A DNA stretch of 12,584 nt, taken from the NCBI GenBank assembly GCA_027067895.1, contig JAMOUY010000085.1:1-12584 (forward strand), given 5' to 3'. The translations under genes and the position numbers were made by a program. The stretch comes from Acidobacteriota bacterium. GTDB lineage: Bacteria; Acidobacteriota; Holophagae; Thermotomaculales; Thermotomaculaceae. Of the stretch, positions 1,689 through 12,584 are shown in pieces; positions within the stretch are counted from its first letter, which is position 1, and the number at the start of each line of letters is the position of its first letter. Under the pieces are notes generated by a model that was given only the letters and a program-made list of their open reading frames with translations, was not told where the DNA came from and searched no databases.

Positions 1689-2420
1689 ATGAAATTTAAA
1701 CCCTTAGAGGTTTTAAAAGAATATGGCGGTACCAAAGTTACTTTTGGAAAGGATTTGGATACCGGAGTATATTTGGTTGAAAAAAGAGTTACAACCAAAG
1801 ACTCGTTTGTAAAAACGTTGTTTGAAAATGAAAAAGATGTTTTGAAGCGCTTACGCCATTCAAACATTATTAAGTTTTTGGGAGAGGGGGGCGACTCCCT
1901 TTCCTTTTTTATTGAGTATGCCCCGTTAAAAAATTTGAAAAATTTTCTTCAAAGCCATAAGGATTTTAATGGAAAAAGGTATTTTATTAAACAGATTATT
2001 GATGCCTTAATTTATATTCATGATGCGGGCTATGCCCATAACGATATAAATCTTACAAACATTTTGGTAATTAACACAAACAAATGCAAACTTTCTGATT
2101 TTGCATTTGCTGGGAAAATCGGAGAACCTGTTTTCCCCGACAGGCCGGTAGGTGTCTGCATTGGAACAAGTTCATACAAAACAGTTGATAACGAGATTCA
2201 TTCGGTTAAAAACGATATCTTTGCCTTTGGAAAAGTTCTTTATGAAATTTTAACCAATGATTTTGACAATAGAAATTTAAAATTGATTGATTTTTCAAAT
2301 GTAAACAATGACGCTTTAAAAGTTGTTATTGAAAAGTGTTTAAACGCTGAATACAATTCTATTGGCGAAACCTATGCAGAATTGAGAAAAGCCACAAAAA
2401 ATTTTGTTGAGTGTTGCTAA
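1689..2420 (+). CDS. Small eukaryotic-like (Hanks-type) protein kinase with altered motifs
   Basis: The 243-residue protein is a bare kinase domain without membrane segment or sensor region. Visible motifs are a degenerate glycine loop (about 13-20), a probable ATP-binding lysine K32, helix-C glutamate E48 (FENEKDVLKRLRHSNII), the catalytic loop HNDINLTN with D119 and N124, the metal-binding D137 in SDFAF, GTSSY (159-163) in place of the GT..Y/APE segment, and DIFAFG (176-181). Three departures from the family stand out: HRD is HND, the catalytic-loop lysine is N121, and DFG is DFA. The core acidic residues and asparagine remain, so it may be a weak kinase or a regulatory pseudokinase. ATG 1689 follows TAAGG, which overlaps the roadblock stop. 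Its stop codon overlaps the convergent histidine kinase gene. The substrate is unknown; the response regulator and roadblock protein are the obvious candidates. Confidence 0.82.
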   Translation: MKFKPLEVLKEYGGTKVTFGKDLDTGVYLVEKRVTTKDSFVKTLFENEKDVLKRLRHSNIIKFLGEGGDSLSFFIEYAPLKNLKNFLQSHKDFNGKRYFIKQIIDALIYIHDAGYAHNDINLTNILVINTNKCKLSDFAFAGKIGEPVFPDRPVGVCIGTSSYKTVDNEIHSVKNDIFAFGKVLYEILTNDFDNRNLKLIDFSNVNNDALKVVIEKCLNAEYNSIGETYAELRKATKNFVECC

Positions 2421-4030
2421 ATAGGAAAATAAATTTTAAAAACCGTACCCTTTCCTTTTTCGCTTTCAAGGAAAATTTCACCGTTATACGATTCCACAAT
2501 GCCGTGCACTATTGGAAGCCCCAAGCCAGTCCCATGTCCTTTTGTTGTGAAATACGGTTCAAAAATTTTGTTTCTTATTTCTTGGGATATTCCTTTTCCG
2601 TTGTCTTTAATTGTCAGTTGAATGTATTCTTTGTTTTTTATTAAATGAATTCCGGGATATTTTTCCAAAAAATTATCTGTAATGAAAATCTTGCTAACCG
2701 ATATTTCTATTTCTCCTTTTTTGTTTTCTATTGCTTGTATGGCGTTGTTGCAAATATTCATAAATACTTGATGAATTTCCGCCTCGTTTCCCCAGATAAA
2801 ATATTTTGATTCGGGAATGTTGATTTTTAGGGTAATGTTTTTGGGTGTTGCCGATTTAAGTAATTTTATGCTGTTTTTTATAGTTTCGTTAAAGTCTATT
2901 AATTTTCTTTCATTATTCGTTTTCTTTGCGAATGAAAGAATTTTTTTAACCACATCGCTTGCCGTTTCGGATGCTATTTTAATGTTTTCAATAAGAGAAT
3001 GAAGTTCGGGATTGTCTTTGGAATAAAGCATTGCCAAATTGGTATTCATTAAAATTGTAGCAATAATATTGTTAAAATCATGCGCCATTCCCCTTGCAAG
3101 CGTTGCCAATGCTTCCATTTTTTGGGCATGCCTTAGTTTTTCTTCTAAAACTGTTTCTTTTGTTATATCTCTGGCAATTTTGCAAAATTTAACAATTTCT
3201 CCTTCTGTGTTTTTTATTGGGTAAATAATTGCTCTTTCTGTGTATAATTCGTTGTTCTTTTTTTTGTTTACAATATTGTTTTCCCATTTTTTACCGCTTT
3301 TAATGGTTTCCCACAGGTTTTTGTAGAATTCTTTTGTATGTTTTCCGCTTTTAAGGATTCTTGTGTGTTTTCCTAAAACCTCTTTTTTGGAATAGCCGGT
3401 TGTTTTTTCAAATTGAGGGTTTGTATATTCTATTGTCCCGTTGATGTCTGTGAGGACAAAAATTTCTTGTGCCTGTTCAATCATTGACGCCAATTCCGAA
3501 ATTTCCTTAAAATTTGTCCGAATTGTTTCCAAAAATTCCGATTGCATTATTTCGATTTCGGCAAGTTTGCTTGTTGTCTCAATAAGTTTTATTTCTATTT
3601 TTTTTAGTTTTTTTTCTTTTTGGATTGTAATACCGCATAATACAAAAATTGAAGAGGAAGCAATTGATATGGTTTTCAAAAAAAGGCTTTTTATGTTTAA
3701 TTCTTCATGAATAAATTTTGCCAAATTTTTTTTGGTTAAAAGTTGGTTTGGTTTTGTTTTATGGCTTTCAAAAAAATTTTTTTTGTTTTTTATTTGAGGC
3801 ATGAAAATTTCATTACAATTTTCGGAAAGTTGTTCTTTTGTTTGTTTTAAAGAAGTTTGAGAGTTGTTTTCCCATAATGCAATTATTTTGTTTTTCTTCA
3901 ACTTTGGATTGAATTCAAAAATAATGCATAAATCCAAATTTAGAGTTTTTCCCAAATCTTTTGTGATGTGTTTCATTATTTGCTTTTTGTTTTGTTTTTT
4001 TAAGTGTTTCTCAATCTCTTTTTCTCTCAT
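2417..4030 (-). CDS. Soluble sensor histidine kinase (GAF-like, PAS, HisKA, HATPase)
   Basis: The protein has 537 residues and no transmembrane helix, so it is a cytoplasmic sensor. Residues about 14-140 look like a divergent GAF domain, followed by a coiled coil (137-180) and a PAS/PAC domain (about 182-292; IFVLTDINGTIEYTNPQFE, then a GYS motif). The dimerisation helix carries the phosphoacceptor H317 in GMAHDFNNI, typical of NtrB-like kinases. The ATPase domain has an N-box (N425/N429), G1 DNGKG (476-480), the F-box IFEPYFTTK and G2 GHGTGLGL (498-505), all intact. It ends right after the ATPase domain, so it has no receiver and needs a separate response regulator. The convergent regulator at 193-1302 is the nearest choice, by inference from position. 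ATG 4030 is preceded on the minus strand by AAAGG with a 5-nt spacer. The bound ligand is unknown. The gene is markedly richer in AT than the operon to its right. Confidence 0.9.
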   Translation of the reverse strand: MREKEIEKHLKKQNKKQIMKHITKDLGKTLNLDLCIIFEFNPKLKKNKIIALWENNSQTSLKQTKEQLSENCNEIFMPQIKNKKNFFESHKTKPNQLLTKKNLAKFIHEELNIKSLFLKTISIASSSIFVLCGITIQKEKKLKKIEIKLIETTSKLAEIEIMQSEFLETIRTNFKEISELASMIEQAQEIFVLTDINGTIEYTNPQFEKTTGYSKKEVLGKHTRILKSGKHTKEFYKNLWETIKSGKKWENNIVNKKKNNELYTERAIIYPIKNTEGEIVKFCKIARDITKETVLEEKLRHAQKMEALATLARGMAHDFNNIIATILMNTNLAMLYSKDNPELHSLIENIKIASETASDVVKKILSFAKKTNNERKLIDFNETIKNSIKLLKSATPKNITLKINIPESKYFIWGNEAEIHQVFMNICNNAIQAIENKKGEIEISVSKIFITDNFLEKYPGIHLIKNKEYIQLTIKDNGKGISQEIRNKIFEPYFTTKGHGTGLGLPIVHGIVESYNGEIFLESEKGKGTVFKIYFPI

Positions 4031-4328: not shown

Positions 4329-4348
4329 TCAATAAAAATTTTTATTGA
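4329..4348. promoter_or_regulatory. 20-bp perfect palindrome over the -35 box
   Basis: TCAATAAAAATTTTTATTGA is a perfect inverted repeat with no spacer, and its last four bases are the first four of the -35 hexamer TTGACT. The placement suits a dimeric regulator that would block or help polymerase binding, different from the TetR sites downstream. In sequence this AT-rich, chance remains possible. Confidence 0.35.
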
Positions 4349-4372
4349 CTTTATTTTTTCGCATACTATAAT
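4345..4372 (+). promoter_or_regulatory. Sigma-70-type promoter of the tetR/acyl-CoA operon
   Basis: A -35 box TTGACT (4345-4350) and a perfect -10 box TATAAT (4367-4372) are separated by 16 bp. Predicted start is near 4379, inside the first TetR operator copy, with a leader of about 44 nt. This is the only strong housekeeping promoter seen ahead of the eight-gene operon; the tight spacing downstream suggests it drives all of it. Confidence 0.75.
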
Positions 4373-4373
4373 T

Positions 4374-4411
4374 AAACCAAACAGTCGGTTTTTAAACCAA
4401 GTGGTCGGTTT
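4374..4411. promoter_or_regulatory. Tandem TetR-type operator (two copies, 20-bp period)
   Basis: Two copies of an 18-bp imperfect palindrome lie at 4374-4391 (AAACCAAACAGTCGGTTT) and 4394-4411 (AAACCAAGTGGTCGGTTT). Each has AAACC and GGTTT arms around eight bases, and the two differ only at positions 8 to 10. The copies repeat every 20 bp, about two helical turns, so bound dimers would lie on the same DNA face. They cover the predicted transcription start and end just before the ribosome binding site GGAGG (4414-4418). TetR regulators of fatty-acid genes often use sites with ACCGAC/GTCGGT cores, so autorepression by the adjacent gene is the natural reading. Confidence 0.7.
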
Positions 4412-4422
4412 TTGGAGGTTTT

Positions 4423-5022
4423 ATGGGGATAAATAAAACTATTCAATCTATTCGTATTTCTCAAATTGTTGAAGCGGCGGTTGAGATAATTGCGGAAAAG
4501 GGGATAAAGGAAACCACTCTTGACGCTGTCGCCAAAAAGGCGGGGCTGTCAAAGGGCGGGCTTATTCACTATTTCCCTACTAAAAAGGCTTTAATTGAAA
4601 CCGTTGTAAAAGAGTTTTTTGCAAGAATTTTTCAAAGAGGGAAAGAGATAAGGGATTCTTTCAGCGACCCTTACGACCAGTTAGTCTCTTTTGTATGGCT
4701 TTATGACAGAGACGACCGGGACAACTTTAACGGTTACAGAATGTTTTTTGAAATTATGGCAGTTGCCTCAATGAATGAAGAATACAGGCAGGTTTTTCAT
4801 CAATGGGTTAACGGCTGGGTTGAATTGTTAAAGGCGTCTATTGAAAAGGGCGTGGAAAAGGGCGATTTCAAGGTGGAAGACTCTGAAAGTGCGGCTAAAA
4901 CAATTTCCGCAGTGTATCAGGGAGTTGCTTCAAGATGGTTTTTGGACCCTGAAAATCACTCTGACGAATGGGCTAAAAGCACGGTTAAAAACTTAATAAA
5001 ATTTGTCGTATCCAAAAAATAA
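4423..5022 (+). CDS. TetR-family transcriptional regulator
   Basis: The 199-residue protein is the normal length for the family. The N-terminal DNA-binding domain (about 10-57) has the classic helix-turn-helix TLDAVAKKAGLSKGGLIHYF followed by the conserved K(T/K)KAL stretch. The remainder (60-199) is the all-helical ligand-binding and dimerisation domain, which is divergent in this family and does not reveal the ligand by eye. It is the first gene of the operon and stands behind the tandem operators, so it probably represses its own transcription. Inducers of relatives placed with acyl-CoA genes are often acyl-CoAs; that is inference here. The start is fixed by GGAGG at 4414-4418. Confidence 0.92.
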   Translation: MGINKTIQSIRISQIVEAAVEIIAEKGIKETTLDAVAKKAGLSKGGLIHYFPTKKALIETVVKEFFARIFQRGKEIRDSFSDPYDQLVSFVWLYDRDDRDNFNGYRMFFEIMAVASMNEEYRQVFHQWVNGWVELLKASIEKGVEKGDFKVEDSESAAKTISAVYQGVASRWFLDPENHSDEWAKSTVKNLIKFVVSKK

Positions 5023-5033
5023 GGGAGGTAATT

Positions 5034-5429
5034 ATGGCAGTTTTTGAATCCACGGAAAAAATGTATGAGGTTTTGGGGGAATTGTTTAATGTTTTGCTTT
5101 CTGACGAAAAAGTGGGTCCTAAGTTTAAAGAACAAAATATTGCAATTCGTTTTGTAATGACAGACCCGAAGGGAGAGATTTGGCTTCTTCCCGACGCAAC
5201 CGTTGTATGCGGAGTGCCCGAGGGAGTGAAAGAGACGATAACAATGAGTTTAAGCGGAGATACCGCACACAAATTTTGGCTTAAAAAAATATCAATGCCT
5301 GTTGCCCTTGCGAGGGGATTGATTAAAGCGAAAGGTCCTTTGCCCAAGGTTTTGAAACTTCTGCCTTTGCTTAATCCCGCTTACAAGGCTTATCCGGAAA
5401 TAGCCAAAAAGCACGGTCTTGAAGTTTAG
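5034..5429 (+). CDS. SCP2 sterol-binding domain protein
   Basis: This 131-residue protein is about the size of a single SCP2 domain. The C-terminal part shows the SCP2 pattern, with an SGDTAHKFWLKK segment followed by MPVALARGLIKAKGPLPK and a terminal hydrophobic helix (LKLLPLLNPA). SCP2 domains form a hydrophobic tunnel that binds acyl-CoAs, sterols or other lipids. There is no signal peptide, so it should act in the cytoplasm, perhaps presenting an acyl substrate to the enzymes encoded downstream. It starts 11 nt after tetR with GGGAGG at 5023-5028. In many organisms an SCP2 domain is fused to or paired with an SCPx thiolase; here both occur as separate proteins in one operon. The family call is by pattern, moderately sure. 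Confidence 0.75.
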   Translation: MAVFESTEKMYEVLGELFNVLLSDEKVGPKFKEQNIAIRFVMTDPKGEIWLLPDATVVCGVPEGVKETITMSLSGDTAHKFWLKKISMPVALARGLIKAKGPLPKVLKLLPLLNPAYKAYPEIAKKHGLEV

Positions 5430-5437
5430 GGGGAATT

Positions 5438-6118
5438 ATGGCTGTTGAAAGAGCGATAAAACAGTTTGAAAGGGACAGAAAAGAGGCGGCGAGAATTGCC
5501 GCAAGGCTTCTTCTTGCTTCCGGGACAACTTCGCCGAGAGTCGGGGGAGTAAGGGAATGCACTTTTCATATTATTGAGGATGACTGCGATATTGAGGACA
5601 TTTGCCATAAAATAGAAACAATGGCAGACGACAACAAGGCGTGGAAATTTTTCAAAAGAGACGCGCAGATGCTGAGGGATGCCGATTTGATAATTTTAAT
5701 CACTTCTCTTCGTTCCCTAACCGACCCGTCGGATATTAACTGCAATATGTGCGGGTTTTTGACTTGCGAGTATATGCAGGAGAGGGAAAAGTTTAAAAAG
5801 GAAGACAAATCAATCGCGTTTACAGGGCCTCTCTGTACATTCAGAGCGGCAAATGTTGCCTATGCGTTAAATGGCATTGTCTCTCTTGCAAGGCAGTTGG
5901 GAATAGACTTTGGTGTTTTCTGGTCTGCCGGGCTTGCAGGTATGAGATTGGGGATGTTGCCCCATGATACGGGTTTTGCCGTAGGAGTCGGCATAAGCGT
6001 TACCGAAAAATCACCGTTCAGGGATATTCCCATTGACTATGACAAGTATAATGACAGAACTATGAAAGACAGGATTATTAACAGGCTGTGGCCTCAATTC
6101 CGTTCAATTTATTCGTAA
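5438..6118 (+). CDS. DUF2148 iron-sulfur (ferredoxin-domain) protein, paralogue 1
   Basis: The 226-residue protein belongs to the DUF2148 family of uncharacterised proteins with a ferredoxin-like domain. Four cysteines are placed to hold an Fe-S cluster: C102, C105 and C110 (CNMCGFLTC) and C133 (GPLC). The following segment (about 137-195, rich in Ala and Gly, including DTGFAVGVGISV) matches the family's C-terminal core. Other cysteines (C41, C50, C56) are not part of the family motif. No signal peptide or membrane helix is seen. The biochemical role of the family is unknown. It lies between the SCP2 and second DUF2148 genes, with its ribosome binding site (AGGGGG) overlapping the SCP2 stop codon, so production is probably coupled. 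A redox role with the acyl-CoA dehydrogenase is my inference from context. Confidence 0.8.
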   Translation: MAVERAIKQFERDRKEAARIAARLLLASGTTSPRVGGVRECTFHIIEDDCDIEDICHKIETMADDNKAWKFFKRDAQMLRDADLIILITSLRSLTDPSDINCNMCGFLTCEYMQEREKFKKEDKSIAFTGPLCTFRAANVAYALNGIVSLARQLGIDFGVFWSAGLAGMRLGMLPHDTGFAVGVGISVTEKSPFRDIPIDYDKYNDRTMKDRIINRLWPQFRSIYS

Positions 6119-6128
6119 GAGGTGCGTT

Positions 6129-6776
6129 ATGGCAAAAAAGAAAATGGAAGATTTGGTAAAAGCGGGGCTTGAAAGAGCGGTTGAACTAATGGTGCTTGCC
6201 GCAAACAATGCTTGGCATTTCGGAGGGAAACACACACTTGAAGCCGTGTTGTTAGATGATGAAGAAATGGAAGAAATGGCAAATTACGCATTGTCCTTGG
6301 GGGATATGTCCCCTCTTGCCGCAAGGGACGGAAGGTTTGCCCTTGAATTAATGAAAGAGCCTTGGGCTGTGATAATTTTCGGGGATAATAGAAAGTCACC
6401 GTTTAATTATGACTGCGGTGCGTGCGGTTTTAGAACGTGCAAAGACTTGAACAAAGCGGAAACGGTTGAGAGTTTAACCTCAAACGGGCCCGCATGCGTT
6501 TTCAAAACCTTGAATTTGAATATGGCAGCCAACGCCGCTGCCGCAACCGCTTGGAGGCTCGGGCTTCATTGCAGGGTTTTTTCAACCCTTGCTTTTGCGG
6601 CAAAGGCTTTGGGCTATATGGAAAGCGACATAGTTGTCGGGGTTGCGGTAAGCGCGGCTAAGCAAGACCCGTTTTTTGACAGACATAAATTCTGGACAAA
6701 AGAGGAATGGGAAAGAATTTTCAACAAAGAGTTTCCCACCTTTAACAGAGGCTTTATCGGAGCGATTGAGGAATAG
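6129..6776 (+). CDS. DUF2148 iron-sulfur (ferredoxin-domain) protein, paralogue 2
   Basis: The 215-residue protein is a second DUF2148 member. The cluster motif is clearer here: C96, C99 and C104 (DCGACGFRTC) and C123 (GPAC). The spacing is C-x2-C-x4-C-x18-C, compared with x22 for the last gap in the upstream copy. The conserved tail is also visible (LGYMESDIVVGVAVSAAKQDPFFD). The two copies align along their whole length but are strongly diverged, so the duplication is old and the pair may form a heterodimer. GAGGTG at 6119-6124 and a 10-nt gap from the preceding gene support the start. No partner enzyme is known for the family. The position directly before the acyl-CoA synthetase and dehydrogenase suggests a role in that pathway. 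Confidence 0.82.
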   Translation: MAKKKMEDLVKAGLERAVELMVLAANNAWHFGGKHTLEAVLLDDEEMEEMANYALSLGDMSPLAARDGRFALELMKEPWAVIIFGDNRKSPFNYDCGACGFRTCKDLNKAETVESLTSNGPACVFKTLNLNMAANAAAATAWRLGLHCRVFSTLAFAAKALGYMESDIVVGVAVSAAKQDPFFDRHKFWTKEEWERIFNKEFPTFNRGFIGAIEE

Positions 6777-6784
6777 GGGGAAAT

Positions 6785-8386
6785 ATGGGAAAAGCGCACT
6801 TAAATCAGGTAATAACCTCACACTTAATTGAGTATCAGGCAGACAGGTTCCCCGATAAAGAAATTCTTGTTTTTGAGCAGGGAGATTTTGGAGAGCGTGT
6901 TTTTACTTATTCCGATTTGCACACTTTGGGAAACAGGCTTGCATCTTATTTTGTTGAAAAAGGGATAAAAGAAGGGGACGCGGTTATTGTTTATATGTGG
7001 AACAGGCCGGAAACGGTTTTGTCTTTTATTGCCGCTTCAACGATAGGAGCGATTGTTGTTCCCGTTGACCCGAGGGCAAGGGGAGACAGACTTAGATATT
7101 TTATTGAACACGTTAATGCAAAGGCTGTTCTTCTTTCTTCGGAAACGTTGAAAAACTTTAAGGAAATCAAAAACAAAGTTCCGTTTGTTGAAACGGTTGC
7201 CGTTGCATATCAAAAGGATTTTCCCGTTGAGGTTGAGAAAGATTTTGATAATCTTAACGAAATTTTGGAAGACAAGGGATTAAAAACAATTCCTCAGTCA
7301 ATCTTTGACGTAAACAAGGTTTTTCAGATAATCTTTACTTCCGGCACCACAGGCAACCCGAAAGGGGTGATAATTAAGCATCAGAGAATAGGGCTTTACA
7401 ACCTTTTGAGGCAGTTGGCGTGGAAATACAAAAAGGACGATATTCTTTACACAGGCCTTTCACTTTCTCATGCAAACGCCCATGTTGTTACTCTTTTTCC
7501 CGCTCTTTACGGCGGAATAAAGGCTGTTTTCAGCCCAAAATTCACAAAGTCAAGAATTTGGGATATTTGCAGAAAATACGGATGCACCTCTTTTTCCCTT
7601 TTAGGCGGAATGGCGGCTGGAATTTTTGCCGAGCCTGAAAAGGATAATGACAGAGACAATCCGGTAAAGGTTGTAATTAGCGCAGGTATGCCCAAGGCGA
7701 TTTGGAAATCTTTTGAGGATAGGTTTGACGTTAAGGTACACGAATGGTACGGTTCTGCCGAAGGCGGATTTGCTCACAACCCGCCGGGAAAGGGGCCTGT
7801 GGGAAGTTTCGGAAAACCGCTTCCCGGCATAATGCAGTTTAAGGTTGTTGACGAAAACGACAATCCCCTTGGGGCAAACGAAGTGGGTGAATTGATTATC
7901 AAAAATTTAAGGGGAGAAACAAAGGTTGAATACTACAAAAATCCCGAGGCTTCCGCCGAAAAGACAAAAGGGGGCTGGCTTAGAACCGGGGATATGGTTC
8001 ATTACGATGACAAAGGCTGGTATTACTTTGATTTTAGAAAAGGGACAGAATTAAGGCGAGCGGGAGATTTTATTCAGCCCGAATACCTTGAAGCGGTTAT
8101 GTCAAAACACCCGGAAATTTCCGAAGTATGCGTTTTCGGTATTCCTGCCGAAAGCGGGGCGCCGGGAGAAAGCGACATAGTTGCCGCCATAAAATTGTTT
8201 GAAGGCAAAACTATTGACGTTCAGTCTGTTTTTGAGTTTTGCAAACAGAATTTAGAGGCGAATTTTGTCCCGCTTTATATCTGGATTGTTGACGAAATTC
8301 CGAAAACCCCTTCCGAAAAACTTTTAAGAAGGGTGTTAAAGGAAAATTTTGATAAGAATAATAAAAATGTTTTTAGAAAAAGTTAG
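6785..8386 (+). CDS. AMP-forming acyl-CoA synthetase
   Basis: The 533-residue protein is a full-length member of the ANL adenylate-forming superfamily. It would activate a carboxylic acid with ATP and ligate it to CoA. Motifs: P-loop TSGTTGNPKG (185-194), A5 motif WYGSAEGG (321-328), GWLRTGD (397-403), the hinge region around R418, and a C-terminal PKTPSEKLLRR with the likely catalytic lysine K512. The hinge is unusual: the common DR pair reads FR (417-418) and the usual GeN reads GDF (427-429). The overall style resembles crotonobetaine/carnitine and medium-chain fatty-acid CoA ligases, but the acid substrate cannot be read by eye. The start follows AGGGGGAAA, which overlaps the stop of the upstream gene. 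It should supply the CoA thioester for the dehydrogenase and thiolase. Confidence 0.9.
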   Translation: MGKAHLNQVITSHLIEYQADRFPDKEILVFEQGDFGERVFTYSDLHTLGNRLASYFVEKGIKEGDAVIVYMWNRPETVLSFIAASTIGAIVVPVDPRARGDRLRYFIEHVNAKAVLLSSETLKNFKEIKNKVPFVETVAVAYQKDFPVEVEKDFDNLNEILEDKGLKTIPQSIFDVNKVFQIIFTSGTTGNPKGVIIKHQRIGLYNLLRQLAWKYKKDDILYTGLSLSHANAHVVTLFPALYGGIKAVFSPKFTKSRIWDICRKYGCTSFSLLGGMAAGIFAEPEKDNDRDNPVKVVISAGMPKAIWKSFEDRFDVKVHEWYGSAEGGFAHNPPGKGPVGSFGKPLPGIMQFKVVDENDNPLGANEVGELIIKNLRGETKVEYYKNPEASAEKTKGGWLRTGDMVHYDDKGWYYFDFRKGTELRRAGDFIQPEYLEAVMSKHPEISEVCVFGIPAESGAPGESDIVAAIKLFEGKTIDVQSVFEFCKQNLEANFVPLYIWIVDEIPKTPSEKLLRRVLKENFDKNNKNVFRKS

Positions 8387-8394
8387 GAGGGGAT

Positions 8395-9630
8395 ATGTCC
8401 TATCTTGAATTAAATTTGGAATTAACCGAGGAGCAGGAAGCACTAAAAAAAGAGGTTCATAAATTTGCCGTGGAAGTACTGCGTCCCGCTTCTTTGAAAC
8501 TTGATAAAATGACACCTGAGGAAGTTATTGCGGAAGGTTCGCTATACTGGGACGTAATGAAAAAAATGTATAGTCTGGGTTATCATACGGTTCATATTCC
8601 CGATGAGTACGGCGGAATGGGGTTGGACCCTCTTTCTCAGCATATTTTTTGGGAAGAATTGTCATACGGAAGCGTAGGTTTTGCAGTATCTTTGGGAGTT
8701 AGCCTTTTTGCACCCTTTTTGGCCTCTATGCTTCCGGAAGACAAAATAGTTGAAGAGATTATAAAGCCTTTTGCGGAATGTGATGACGCATCTATTGTTG
8801 GGTGCTGGGCAATAACCGAGCCTAACCACGGAAGCGATATTTTAACTCCGGGAATGGAACATTTTAGAGACCCGAAAATTCATCAGCAGGTTACCGCTTA
8901 TAAAAAGGGGGACAGATGGATTTTAAACGGACAGAAGTCCGCATGGGTGTCAAACGGTCCCGTTGCAACTCAGGCTTTGTTATTCGTAAACATAGACAAA
9001 TCCATGGGAATGGCCGGCGGTGGAATTTGTATTGCGGATTTAACTCAAAAAGGTGTTCAAAAAGGCAAGCCTCTTGACAAAATGGGACAGAGGGAACTGC
9101 CTCAGGGGGAAATTTACTTTACCGATGCGGAAGTGCCGGAAGAGTTTATGATGGTAGACCCTGACAGTTATGAATTTATGACAGACGTTGTATTGGCGGA
9201 AGCAAATATGCACATGGGGGCGTTTTTTACCGGGCTTGCTCAGGCGGCTTACGATTTGACTTTGAAATACTGTACCGAGAGAAAGCAGGGCGGGAAATAC
9301 CTTATAGAACACAACACTGTGAAAGAAAAACTGTTTCACATGTTTACCAAAATTGAAACCGCAAGGGCTTATTCCCGCGCTGTAATGGTTTATAACCTGA
9401 ATACCACGCCGCCTGTTGCGAAATTCAGTTTATCTTCAAAAGTTTACTGCACTCAGGCTGCGTTTGACGTCTGCAACGAAGCGGTTCAACTTTTCGGCGG
9501 ATACGGCTTAACCAAAGAGTATGAAATAGAAAAGTTTTTTAGAGACGCAAGGGCTGGAATGATAGAAGACGGTTCAAACCACGTTCTTGCCATAAGTGCG
9601 GGAAATATGATTATGAAAGAGGTACTTTAA
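8395..9630 (+). CDS. Acyl-CoA dehydrogenase family flavoprotein
   Basis: The 411-residue protein has the usual length and fold markers of the FAD-dependent acyl-CoA dehydrogenase family. These are an N-terminal helical domain, the flavin and substrate motif WAITEPNHGSD (138-148), KSAWVSNG (181-188) and the C-terminal LFGGYGLTKEYEIEKFFRDA (367-386). It would introduce a double bond into an acyl-CoA. In place of the usual YEGT around the catalytic glutamate of MCAD-type enzymes the sequence is IEDGSNH (390-396). By alignment the base is D392, or E391 if it is shifted by one. No electron-transfer flavoprotein gene is in the operon. AGGAGGGG at 8386-8392 sets the start, and the stop TAA shares one base with the thiolase ATG, implying translational coupling. 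Substrate unknown; a branched or cyclic acyl-CoA is possible. Confidence 0.92.
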   Translation: MSYLELNLELTEEQEALKKEVHKFAVEVLRPASLKLDKMTPEEVIAEGSLYWDVMKKMYSLGYHTVHIPDEYGGMGLDPLSQHIFWEELSYGSVGFAVSLGVSLFAPFLASMLPEDKIVEEIIKPFAECDDASIVGCWAITEPNHGSDILTPGMEHFRDPKIHQQVTAYKKGDRWILNGQKSAWVSNGPVATQALLFVNIDKSMGMAGGGICIADLTQKGVQKGKPLDKMGQRELPQGEIYFTDAEVPEEFMMVDPDSYEFMTDVVLAEANMHMGAFFTGLAQAAYDLTLKYCTERKQGGKYLIEHNTVKEKLFHMFTKIETARAYSRAVMVYNLNTTPPVAKFSLSSKVYCTQAAFDVCNEAVQLFGGYGLTKEYEIEKFFRDARAGMIEDGSNHVLAISAGNMIMKEVL

Positions 9631-10862
9631 TGGCCTATATCGCAGGTTCAGGAATGATAAAATTCGGGAAATATCCCGACGAAACCGTGAGGACAATGGC
9701 TGTAAAAGCGGTTGAACTTGCTTTAAAAGACGCAGAAATTGAAAAAAACGACATAGAATATGCGTATTTTTCCAACACGTTTTGGGGAATGTTTTCCAAC
9801 CAGCACTGCATAAAAGGGGAAGTGGTTCTGCGCTCTATGGGAATGGCGGATATTCCTGTGGTAAATGTTGAAAACGCATGCGCAGGGGGAATTACCGCTT
9901 TTCACATGGCTTATCTGACTGTTTTGTCCGGGCAGGCGGATGTGGCGCTTGCCGTAGGTTCCGAAAAAATCACTTCGGAAGACAAAATGAAATCCCTTTC
10001 CGCTTACGCTTCCTGCATGGATATGGAAAGGTTTAAAAACCACATGAAAGAGATTTTGATTTTGCAGAAAAGTTTTAAAAACCTTGTTATTCCCGAAAAT
10101 GCGCAGAATACGGGCGGACGTTCTGTTTTTATGGACGTTTACGCGGTAGGGGCAAGGTGGCATATGGATAAATACGGCTCAACACAGGAGCAGTTGGCGG
10201 TAATTGCCGCAAAAAATCACTGGCACTCTTCAATGAATCCCCTTGCTCAATACCAAATTCCCATGACGCCTGAAATGGTGCTTAAAGACCAAATTGTTGT
10301 GTGGCCTTTAACCCGTTCAATGTGTGCCCCCGTGGGAGACGGAGCGGCGGCATGCGTCATTGTTTCCGAAAGGTTTTTGAAAAAACACGGCAAAAAAAGA
10401 GCGGTGAAAATCAGAGCATCGGTTTTGGGACAGGGAAGAGACAGAAAGATTGACGATGAGGATTTAGGCAAAAGGCTTGGAAAAGTCGCTTACGAAAAGG
10501 CGGAAATTTCCCCAGACGATATTGACGTTGCCGAATTGCACGATGCAACCGCGTACGGGGAATTGCATCAAAGCGAAAATTTGGGATTTTGCAAAGAAGG
10601 AGAAGGGGGGATAATCGCCGAAAGGGGAGAGACGAAATTAGGCGGAAGAATTCCCATAAACACAAGCGGAGGCCTTGAATCAAGGGGACATCCCATCGGC
10701 GCTTCCGGGCTTGCGCAAATCCATGAACTTGTTTTGCAGTTAAGGGGTGAGGCAGGTAAAAGGCAGGTTGAGGGAGCAAGAATTGCCCTTGCGCAAAACG
10801 GCGGAGGGAACATAGGACTTGAAGAGGCAGTAATGGGGATTGCGATTTTGGAAAAAGTTTAA
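9630..10862 (+). CDS. SCPx-type thiolase / lipid-transfer thiolase
   Basis: The 410-residue protein is of the thiolase superfamily. The nucleophile is C84 in ENACAGG, with the HDA motif (H304 in ELHDATAYGE) and GHPIGASG containing H354. The final signature that carries the second cysteine (CxG) in degradative thiolases reads QNGGGN (389-394), so N390 stands where Cys would be. This is the pattern of the SCPx/non-specific lipid-transfer thiolases, which act on branched or sterol-like 3-ketoacyl-CoAs. Some relatives need a small DUF35 partner; none is in the window. The start ATG overlaps the dehydrogenase TAA by one base (TAATG), and AAAGAGGT at 9616-9623 serves as ribosome binding site. It probably cleaves the 3-ketoacyl-CoA made from the dehydrogenase product. 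Whether it works in the breakdown or condensing direction is not shown. Confidence 0.88.
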   Translation: MAYIAGSGMIKFGKYPDETVRTMAVKAVELALKDAEIEKNDIEYAYFSNTFWGMFSNQHCIKGEVVLRSMGMADIPVVNVENACAGGITAFHMAYLTVLSGQADVALAVGSEKITSEDKMKSLSAYASCMDMERFKNHMKEILILQKSFKNLVIPENAQNTGGRSVFMDVYAVGARWHMDKYGSTQEQLAVIAAKNHWHSSMNPLAQYQIPMTPEMVLKDQIVVWPLTRSMCAPVGDGAAACVIVSERFLKKHGKKRAVKIRASVLGQGRDRKIDDEDLGKRLGKVAYEKAEISPDDIDVAELHDATAYGELHQSENLGFCKEGEGGIIAERGETKLGGRIPINTSGGLESRGHPIGASGLAQIHELVLQLRGEAGKRQVEGARIALAQNGGGNIGLEEAVMGIAILEKV

Positions 10863-10884
10863 TGATTTTTAAAAAGAGGAGAAA

Positions 10885-11640
10885 ATGAGTAAAACGATTT
10901 TAATAACAGGCGCCGCTTCCGGAATAGGGGAAGCGGCTGTCCGCCTTTTTAGCGATAAAGGCTGGAAAATTATCGGCATAGACGTAAGCGAAGAAGGATT
11001 AAAAAAAGTTAAAGAAAGATGCGCAGAGGCTTTTGTCTGCGATGTTTCCGAAAAAAAAGAGGTTGAGGCTGTTGCCGAAAATTTGAAAAGCCAAGGAATT
11101 GTTTTGGACGCATTGTTCAACTGCGCGGGAATTTTGAGAATGGGACTTTTTTACCAATTGGATGTTGACAGTCAATTAAAAATAGTTGACGTAAATTTAA
11201 AGGGAATTGTAAACTGCACGCATCTGTTTTTCCCGTTGATGAAAGAAAATTCCGCCATTGTCAATATGTCTTCACTTTCCTCTCTTTACGGCACTCCCGA
11301 GTTGGCGGTGTATTCGGCAACAAAAAGCGCTGTAAAAACGTTAACCGAGGCTTTGAATATTGAGTTTGAGCCAAAGGGAATTTATGTTTGCGATATAATT
11401 GTTGACTATGTGAAAACACCTATGGTTTTGGATGCGGAATACAAAGCCACAAGCGTAAGAAGGTTGGGAGTAACTGTTAGCCCGGAAAAGGTTGCGAAAA
11501 AAGTATTTTCAGCGGTAAATTCCGGCAGAAGGGTTCACCATTACGTTGGAATAAAAGCCAAACTGATAACCTTTTCGGCAAAACTTTTCCCTTTTGCTTC
11601 CAAACTGTTTGCCAAAATTCTGGCTTTTAAGAAAAGATAG
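10885..11640 (+). CDS. Short-chain dehydrogenase/reductase (SDR)
   Basis: The 251-residue protein is a classical SDR. The nucleotide-binding loop is TGAASGIG (8-15), with D33 after the second strand favouring NAD(H) over NADP(H). Further markers are D53, the NCAG motif (79-82), N104, the serine of NMSS (127-130), and the catalytic Y143 and K147 in YSATK. It would interconvert an alcohol and a ketone, possibly a 3-hydroxyacyl-CoA step between dehydrogenase and thiolase; that is inference. The last 30 residues form a hydrophobic/basic helix (KLITFSAKLFPFASK and onward, ending AFKKR) that may tether it to the membrane. It starts 22 nt after the thiolase with AAGAGGAG upstream. Its stop lies one base from the stop of the convergent UDP-glucose dehydrogenase. 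It is probably the last gene of the operon. Confidence 0.9.
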   Translation: MSKTILITGAASGIGEAAVRLFSDKGWKIIGIDVSEEGLKKVKERCAEAFVCDVSEKKEVEAVAENLKSQGIVLDALFNCAGILRMGLFYQLDVDSQLKIVDVNLKGIVNCTHLFFPLMKENSAIVNMSSLSSLYGTPELAVYSATKSAVKTLTEALNIEFEPKGIYVCDIIVDYVKTPMVLDAEYKATSVRRLGVTVSPEKVAKKVFSAVNSGRRVHHYVGIKAKLITFSAKLFPFASKLFAKILAFKKR

Positions 11641-11641
11641 T

Positions 11642-12584
11642 TTATTTCTGTAAAACCGGTTTTCTGCCTATGGAAAAGTAGTTGAATCCCTTTTCTTGCA
11701 TGTGCTCGGGTTTATAGATATTTCTTCCGTCAAAAATTGTTTTGTCTTTCAGGGATTTTTTCATTTTTTCAAAATCCGGTTTTCTGAATTCAAGCCATTC
11801 GGTAACAATTACAAGCGCATCGGTGTCTTTCAATGCCGAGTATTGGTTGTCGCAGAATGTTATTTTGTCGGAAATTCCCATTGAAGAGAAAATTTTCTTT
11901 GCGTTTTCCATTGCCACAGGGTCGTATGCCTTGATTTTTGCTCCCTTTTCTGTAAGCCCTTTGATTATGTCTATTGCCGGCGCTTCCCTCATATCGTCGG
12001 TGTTGGGTTTAAAGGAAAGTCCCCAAATTGCAAAGGTTTTTCCGTCAATGTTTCCGTTGTAAAAGTTAAGGATTCTGTCAACCATGATTTTTCTTTGCTG
12101 TTTGTTAACCTTTTCAACCGCCTCAATAACGCTTAATTTGTGGCCGTATTCCTCTCCGGTTTTCAAAATAGCCTTAACGTCTTTTGGAAAGCACGAGCCT
12201 CCGTATCCCACTCCGGGAAAGAGGAATGCAAGCCCGATTCTTGAATCTGTGCCTATTCCCACTCTGACTTTTTCAATATCCGCGCCTACTTTTTCGGCAA
12301 GGTTTGCCAAGTCGTTCATAAAAGATATTCTTGTGGCAAGCATAGAGTTTGCCGCATACTTTGTCAATTCCGCGCTTACGTTGTCCATTAAAATAATTCT
12401 CTCCCTCTTTCTTACAAAGGGCGAGTATAGGTCAACCATTATGTTTCTTGCCTTTTCGCTGTTTGTTCCTATTACAATTCTATCCGGTTTTAAAAAGTCT
12501 TGAACCGCAGCGCCCTCTTTCAAAAATTCCGGGTTTGAGACGACATCAAATGGATGGTTTGTGATTTTGCCTATCTCTTCCTTA
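11642..12584 (-). CDS. ugd: UDP-glucose 6-dehydrogenase, N-terminus beyond window
   Basis: The 313 visible residues are the C-terminal part; the frame is open to the window edge and reads KEEIGK...SNPEFLKEG, a conserved stretch inside the family, so the true start lies outside. The enzyme oxidises UDP-glucose twice with NAD to UDP-glucuronate, a precursor of surface polysaccharides. Key features of the visible part are the conserved SNPEFLKEG, the active-site lysine and asparagine in AELTKYAANS (about K75 and N79 of the fragment), and the catalytic cysteine in GVGYGGSCFPKD (about C131 of the fragment). The C-terminal UDP-binding domain begins with GLSFKPNTDD. A start at TTG 12523 would cut into this conserved stretch and is not real. 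The gene is not functionally tied to the operon it faces. Confidence 0.9.
   Translation of the reverse strand, partial: KEEIGKITNHPFDVVSNPEFLKEGAAVQDFLKPDRIVIGTNSEKARNIMVDLYSPFVRKRERIILMDNVSAELTKYAANSMLATRISFMNDLANLAEKVGADIEKVRVGIGTDSRIGLAFLFPGVGYGGSCFPKDVKAILKTGEEYGHKLSVIEAVEKVNKQQRKIMVDRILNFYNGNIDGKTFAIWGLSFKPNTDDMREAPAIDIIKGLTEKGAKIKAYDPVAMENAKKIFSSMGISDKITFCDNQYSALKDTDALVIVTEWLEFRKPDFEKMKKSLKDKTIFDGRNIYKPEHMQEKGFNYFSIGRKPVLQK

Follow-up and report, generated by a model that had tools for sequence, protein, structure and literature searches.

The 12,584-nucleotide (nt) stretch of DNA from an Acidobacteriota bacterium analyzed here (contig JAMOUY010000085.1; hereafter the window) carries eight close-packed open reading frames (ORFs) on its + strand, spanning positions 4423–11640, two of which encode proteins of the domain family DUF2148. 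According to the ORF listing of the window, the order is a TetR-family regulator (4423–5022; PF00440, E 6.3e-15), an SCP2-like protein (5034–5429), the DUF2148 proteins DufA (5438–6118) and DufB (6129–6776), an AMP-forming acyl-CoA ligase (ACS; 6785–8386; PF00501, E 1.2e-70), an acyl-CoA dehydrogenase (ACAD; 8395–9630), an SCP2-type thiolase (9630–10862) and a short-chain dehydrogenase (SDR; 10885–11640; PF00106, E 7e-42). The successive gaps are 11, 8, 10, 8, 8, −1 and 22 nt, the ACAD and thiolase ORFs sharing 1 nt, and a Pfam scan matched TetR_N, DUF2148 (twice), AMP-binding, acyl-CoA dehydrogenase, thiolase and adh_short. The ORFs, gaps and labels thus agree with a preliminary description of this DNA as a tightly packed eight-gene operon, although the SCP2-like label is weaker than the others. 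Indeed, the 131-residue, presumably lipid-binding product gave no Pfam hit at 1e-3 and is one of three non-matching members of a family in which 15 of 18 match PF02036 at E ≤ 1 (best 1.9e-5); a profile of the family found a fatty-acid-binding protein in the PDB at E 0.0014 and SCP2 chains at E 0.21–0.25. In our reading, these eight genes are regulated together as a single unit, with a promoter-like site and a tandem repeat of an operator-like box ahead of them. All 54 complete related loci show collinear gene order, so this unit goes beyond chance. The earlier proposal of a single transcription unit is supported.

Both DUF2148 proteins match PF09918 above its curated cut-off of 25 bits (65.8 and 73.7 bits, E 3.5e-18 and 1.2e-20) and contain the four-cysteine ferredoxin-like motif of the family. 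They share 25% identity, indicating two separate subfamilies, A and B. The cysteine segments, which are presumed [4Fe-4S] sites, span Cys102–Cys133 in DufA (CX2CX4CX22C; 5741–5836, +) and Cys96–Cys123 in DufB (6414–6497, +). The cysteines are invariant in the alignments (89 rows in the case of DufB), and CX2CX4C is present in 69/69 DufA and 68/68 DufB sequences. Of 89 members, 51 reach E ≤ 1 with the FeS profile PF04060 (best 1.4e-4); the match to the window DufB (E 0.0033; 17.5 bits, below the 23-bit cut-off) aligns only 14 residues. PDB sequence searches returned no match for DufA and one chance match for the DufA-family (A3) profile. In AlphaFold2 models (pLDDT 82.5 for DufA and 86.2 for DufB), both proteins are predicted to adopt the nitroreductase fold typical of flavin mononucleotide (FMN) proteins, with the four-cysteine segment as an insertion. 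This fold is shared with iodotyrosine deiodinase, NfsB, the FbiB C-terminal domain, CLA-ER and cyclodipeptide oxidase, and the structural matches listed for DufB include CLA-ER (4qlx), which acts on a fatty-acid enone, and a flavin-dependent cyclodipeptide-oxidizing filament (9exv). DufAB differ from these nitroreductases in having the four-cysteine insertion, two dissimilar chains encoded by adjacent genes, a C-terminal extension and a setting in an acyl-CoA operon. Because both proteins are modeled as nitroreductase folds with a cysteine insertion, an enzyme is likelier than a simple ferredoxin, and the initial suggestion of a plain electron carrier or sensor is not supported in that form.

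A named-genome scan with two DufA peptide patterns (EKSPFRDI and RLWPQFRS), which cover subfamily A only, identified 69 loci, termed type-1 loci, whose DufA proteins are 54–86% identical to that of the window; the DufA C-terminus is conserved in 69/69, partly owing to selection by the scan patterns. The SCP2-like gene adjoins DufA in all 69, and at loci with room for the gene in question DufB is found in 68/68, the ligase in 61/61, the ACAD in 56/56, the thiolase in 50/51 (the miss being L030) and a TetR gene in 37/61. The order SCP2–DufA–DufB–ligase–ACAD–thiolase is retained in 54/54 complete loci. The neighborhood search for DUF2148, ACAD and SCPx thiolase that had been proposed at the outset thus shows the pair to be a constant part of an acyl-CoA module. 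Record titles assign the loci to Acidobacteriota, Desulfobacterota-type Deltaproteobacteria, Spirochaetes, Chloroflexi/Dehalococcoidia and Bacillota/Syntrophomonadaceae, labels that are loose for several metagenome-assembled Deltaproteobacteria, which NCBI titles place under Myxococcota. Five clusters of unannotated ORFs at these loci are mostly antisense, with 40 of 47 members overlapping a cassette gene by more than half.

The association extends to divergent DUF2148 branches. Among 297 Acidobacteriota genomes, 15 carry DUF2148 (five with an A/B pair, six with a single gene and four with a divergent pair), and DufA′ of the divergent branch is 24–26% identical to the window DufA. At L096 and L098 the SCP2, ACAD, ligase, DufA′, DufB′, thiolase and SDR genes lie together, the same seven families in a changed order, and L097, L099 and L100 are consistent with this divergent set as far as their contigs extend. 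A third order of the same set is seen at L110, whose genome belongs to the phylum of Desulfosarcina widdelii. Conservation of the set in several orders, and at great divergence, therefore indicates that the association outlived rearrangement.

Of 148 genomes of the D. widdelii phylum, 37 match DUF2148; 13 of these contain 20 pairs between them, and singles above the cut-off number 25. Neighborhoods were compared for every pair and for 20 of the singles, leaving aside a weak, partial match in G337 that fell below the cut-off (E 9e-4), and the criterion was a relative of the ligase, ACAD or thiolase (tblastn, E ≤ 1e-5) within 5 kb. Such relatives are located near 16/20 pairs and 0/20 singles (Fisher p 1.5e-7), a comparison in which the pairs are not independent (six derive from G411 and two each from G377 and G337) and the contig of some pairs and singles stops short of the full 5-kb flank. 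Genome samples also overlap in part (L006 with G013; L123–L125 are already among the 69). The four pairs without acyl-CoA relatives are L115, L118 and L121, on contigs of at most 6.1 kb, and L113. One finding that would have spoken against the preliminary description, pairs mostly away from acyl-CoA genes, was therefore not what we observed. The lone genes without acyl-CoA neighbors (0/20) are the one point in favor of regarding the pair as an incidental neighbor of such genes, but this is contradicted by the conserved cassette, both in the type-1 loci and in the divergent sets, and we find it hardly credible. Chloroflexota and Spirochaetota were scanned as well: 4 of 101 genomes match in the former, with one pair (the centre of the sample itself), and 16 of 80 in the latter, with four pairs (centre included). 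The system is patchy in distribution.

The single proteins (L126–L145) belong to COG4739 (“uncharacterized ferredoxin-like protein”) and have the Pfam family and four cysteines in common with DufAB, but they lie away from acyl-CoA genes, lack the C-terminal extension seen in DufA and DufB, and carry a strong DNRI motif, which is absent from A and B, and a K-FDR-type end. One motif, of TAPK type, bears on whether DufAB are redox proteins at all: its proline is kept in the singles and, as SPR, in DufA, while DufB is without it. This, and the fact that FMN binding is a prediction, would fit a non-redox role in a complex, for example as structural subunit, regulator or degenerate nitroreductase. 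However, the four cysteines are invariant in both subunits and in the singles, and conservation is high (DufA, 54–86% across 69 loci), making such a role very improbable.

The 8.9-Mb genome G411, from the D. widdelii phylum, contains six diverged DUF2148 pairs on six contigs. Within the regions retrieved, their neighbors encode thiolase, ligase and FAD_binding_4 with CCG proteins (L111); DUF35, thiolase, ACAD, ligase and HpaB (L112); hydratase, SDR and DUF35 (L113); ligase, aldehyde:ferredoxin oxidoreductase, 3-hydroxyacyl-CoA dehydrogenase and acetoacetate decarboxylase (L114); DUF35 (L115, a short contig); and ACAD and SDR (L116). Six diverged pairs with differing neighbors make a generic carrier unlikely and a substrate-facing enzyme possible. 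DUF35-type genes occur near 5 of the 20 pairs (L112, L113, L115, L117 and L122; Pfam-confirmed for L112 and L117) and adjoin the divergent DufB in L115, L117 and L122. An ordinary nitroreductase gene was also observed beside the pair in L122 (6104–6631, −) and L117 (4711–5244, +), and L113 (10189–11490) and L116 (12420–13208) encode proteins without a Pfam hit whose N-termini resemble each other by eye.

The constant presence of an ACAD raises the question of whether DufAB form a flavin/Fe-S bridge that resembles electron transfer flavoprotein (ETF), accepting FADH2 electrons from the cassette ACAD and passing them to ferredoxin or quinone, in line with the initial proposal of an electron carrier. 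An ACAD is present at 56/56 type-1 loci with room and also in L096–L099, the four divergent sets of Acidobacteriota with contigs long enough to include it, ACADs 45–48% identical to that of the cassette and with the same Asp (see below) lie beside the type-3 pairs L112, L116, L119 and L120, and an Fe-S cluster plus flavin would suit conversion between two- and one-electron transfer. Against this, an ETF-alpha gene was found in 40/40 cassette genomes tested (40 of the 69 loci), no ACAD relative lies within 5 kb of several divergent pairs, among them L111, L114, L122 and L117 (flanks short in L117), and six diverged pairs in one genome would be odd for a generic carrier. An acceptor dedicated to the ACAD is thus not required, and we consider the bridge a possible but rather doubtful function. 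A role for DufAB as a necessary replacement of ETF was rejected on the same ETF-alpha counts. Because of the six G411 pairs and the ETF genes, we favor DufAB as a substrate-facing oxidoreductase.

The partner enzymes provide some indication of the substrate. The counts that follow exclude any sequence with an internal stop or a gap in the column concerned, and totals vary (54–57 ACADs and 52–55 thiolases). The ACAD, assigned by its Pfam ACAD domains, has Asp392 (9568–9570) in the alignment column of the YEGT-type motif Glu that we take to be catalytic in 4l1f and 1ukw, and Glu391 stands where the motif Tyr is; it therefore departs from the classical Glu motif, and the Glu-Asp pair is invariant in 55/55. 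Asp is also found in the ACADs of divergent cassettes and beside type-3 pairs (IEDG, VEDG or IADG), and more distant ACADs in these loci read IWTG, IREG or IFAG. PMC11659651 describes, for known ACADs, replacement of this Tyr by Phe, Leu, Val or Gly together with alpha- or beta-substituted substrates. The thiolase, also assigned by Pfam, finds its best PDB match in the SCP2-thiolase type 1 structure 6hsj (E 1.3e-60), and its residues Cys84, His304 (HDAT), His354 and Asn390 are invariant across 52–55 sequences. HDAT stands opposite HDCF of 6hsj and occurs in 52 of 54 relatives (the other two had no pattern match), and we therefore term the enzyme SCP2-thiolase-like. The ligase has oxalate-CoA ligases as leading PDB sequence relatives (E 2e-44), with FadD13 and FATP2 included. 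As judged from these sequences, the substrate may be a bulky hydrophobic acid, a suggestion that comes from the SCP2-type partners and the ACAD motif; the ligase leaves the matter undecided.

The SDR varies by lineage. The window-type cluster has 19 rows, another classical SDR cluster covers 19 loci (upstream in L053), and two Epimerase/3Beta_HSD-type extended SDR clusters occur downstream of the thiolase in 22 loci (e.g., L019, L032, L011 and L027); besides the window SDR, Pfam was run on one, one and four members of these clusters. Both Epimerase-type SDRs scanned with NCBIfam gave weak OleD matches. These extended SDRs (22 loci, four members Pfam-scanned) are in keeping with a biosynthetic module, in which the thiolase would condense acyl-CoAs, the SDR reduce the product and ACAD plus DufAB reduce double bonds to give an unusual long or branched lipid on the SCP2-like protein. 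The conserved SCP2-like gene, the HDAT motif in place of HDCF and the lack of a hydratase relative in the cassette loci (one query) point the same way. Yet a nearby TetR gene and a ligase that activates free acids at the expense of ATP better suit a response to an external acid, the pairs of one genome lie near catabolic-looking genes for HpaB, aldehyde:ferredoxin oxidoreductase and acetoacetate decarboxylase, and the distribution is patchy, and we judge a biosynthetic module to be unlikely.

The reading that we prefer, although we give it somewhat less than an even chance, is that the operon encodes a TetR-linked module for acyl-CoA redox chemistry in which DufAB form a heteromeric, ferredoxin-linked FMN/[4Fe-4S] oxidoreductase acting on a CoA-bound intermediate. 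Since nitroreductases are dimers with FMN at the interface, we infer by analogy a DufA–DufB heterodimer with FMN and one [4Fe-4S] cluster per subunit. In this scheme, the SCP2-like protein would present an acid that is bulky and hydrophobic, probably branched or cyclic, and the ligase would activate it; the ACAD, with an Asp base and no preceding Tyr, would dehydrogenate the acyl-CoA, the SDR would interconvert hydroxy and keto forms, and the thiolase would form or cleave a C–C bond. DufAB would serve as an FMN/[4Fe-4S] ene-reductase or dehydrogenase working directly on a CoA-bound intermediate, exchanging single electrons with ferredoxin. The role would be analogous to that of the 2,4-dienoyl-CoA reductase FadH, an FMN- and 4Fe-4S-containing ene-reductase auxiliary to beta-oxidation; the analogy is one of role only, as FadH is a single chain of the unrelated old-yellow-enzyme fold. 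A bolder version, which we put forward tentatively and rate as improbable, is that DufAB represent a new class of acyl-CoA oxidoreductases, heteromeric FMN/[4Fe-4S] enzymes of nitroreductase fold in which a redox step on a CoA ester is coupled directly to ferredoxin, possibly by bifurcation between unlike flavin sites, and that the cassette is an undescribed bulky-acid pathway in several phyla, largely in anaerobic groups.

Several observations weigh against the preferred reading. Foldseek TM-scores to nitroreductase-fold proteins are modest (0.38–0.61 among the matches listed), hhalign with four nitroreductases gave no significant sequence link (probability 0.4–2%, E 0.025–0.16), and PF00881 matches only 2 of 89 members (best E 0.13). 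The oxalate-CoA ligases, the nearest ligase relatives with structures, do not point to a bulky acid, and Glu in place of Tyr in the ACAD is no simple enlargement of the pocket. Finally, one enoyl-CoA hydratase query (E 1e-5; MaoC-type hydratases were not queried) found no relative in any of the 69 loci, and the route is therefore incomplete there or unlike beta-oxidation. One 3-hydroxyacyl-CoA dehydrogenase query gave a single match across the 69 loci, 9 kb away in L044.

Two known systems invite comparison. Peroxisomal beta-oxidation of branched-chain and bile acids, which uses very-long-chain acyl-CoA synthetase, ACOX, MFE-2 and SCPx, resembles the cassette in its ligase, flavin dehydrogenase, SDR, SCP2-type thiolase and SCP2-like protein. 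By contrast, the cassette is bacterial, has separate chains and an added DUF2148 pair, and no hydratase was found (one query). The DUF35-dependent thiolases and aldolases (BbsAB, archaeal acetoacetyl-CoA thiolase, Sal/Shy and Ltp2/ChsH2) share the thiolase superfamily with the cassette enzyme, but three DUF35 queries (E 1e-5) found no relative in any of the 69 type-1 loci. In the steroid retro-aldolases Sal/Ltp2, PMC12329534 gives the Tyr of a YDxF/Y motif as catalytic; the cassette thiolase has His (HDAT) at this position and so differs from Sal/Ltp2.

Upstream of tetR, a sigma-70-like promoter, TTGACT-16-TATAAT (4345–4372, +; 11/12 match), is the best of 15 promoter-like matches, a count that is not above that in shuffled sequence (mean 13.6, sd 3.1). 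It directly precedes two 17-bp operator-like boxes, box 1 AACCAAACAGTCGGTTT (4375–4391, +), a presumed TetR site, and box 2 AACCAAGTGGTCGGTTT (4395–4411, +), which starts 20 bp after box 1. The box is shared upstream of tetR by the window, L003, L004, L005 and L104 (5 of 42 upstream regions), and diverged boxes without a pattern match are discernible by eye in L006, L056 and L105. Among the other 34 regions, L057 and L059 have one different-looking match each and 32 have none; in these 42 regions, loci from families other than that of the window yielded no boxes. With up to one mismatch allowed, the pattern matches only boxes 1 and 2 in the window's own genome (G000), both exactly, and a reversed control pattern gives two matches there, equal to the real count, and one in G124. 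The 20-bp spacing at the cassette recurs in G124, G212 and G276. In the own genome and in two congeners, matches with up to one mismatch lie nowhere but at the cassette; G276 has two extra one-mismatch matches away from it, and the family member G228, which has no DUF2148 match, has no box. Used in these three genomes to search for further regulon members, the boxes thus brought up no hydratase or other gene.

The source bin (1.81 Mb) is 83% complete. The DufA proteins of the window and of Thermotomaculum hydrothermale share 83% identity, and in a quick five-protein tree of 62 rows the window groups with four Acidobacteriota rows with an SH-aLRT support of 100. Cassette GC content is 40–46%, compared to 30–38% for the four genes to its left. 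Recent horizontal transfer, considered on the basis of this composition, was set aside, as the congener L104 has no GC contrast and the quick tree places the window with Acidobacteriota. An aerobic link of the cassette was also set aside: the COX1 family, which also includes nitric oxide reductases, was found in 21 of 47 genomes tested, a weak signal as bins may be incomplete. The genes to the left encode a response regulator with DUF4388, a 122-residue protein without a Pfam hit and a Ser/Thr-kinase-like protein (193–2420, +) and, convergent with these, a PAS histidine kinase (2417–4030, −); together they look like a separate signaling group of lower GC than the operon. To the right, a UDP-glucose 6-dehydrogenase-type gene (11642–12523, −), truncated by the window edge (matches begin near profile position 155), converges on the SDR with 1 nt between them.

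Searches of open-licence full-text literature in PMC, with subscription journals outside their scope, found no mention of DUF2148, COG4739 or PF09918, and only unrelated titles for “uncharacterized ferredoxin-like protein”; among the matches listed for combined searches, no title or abstract start describes the cassette. The notion of a previously undescribed system is in line with these results. That the gene set recurs across phyla suggests a redox enzyme of acyl-CoA metabolism that has so far escaped description. For DUF2148 there is now a predicted fold, a likely set of cofactors and a pathway context that stays constant, and its function is therefore directly testable, while the cassette, now named, can be searched for in metagenomes. 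If our reading is right, it would add a type of redox enzyme for the breakdown, or the making, of lipid-like or cyclic acids in bacteria titled in five phyla.

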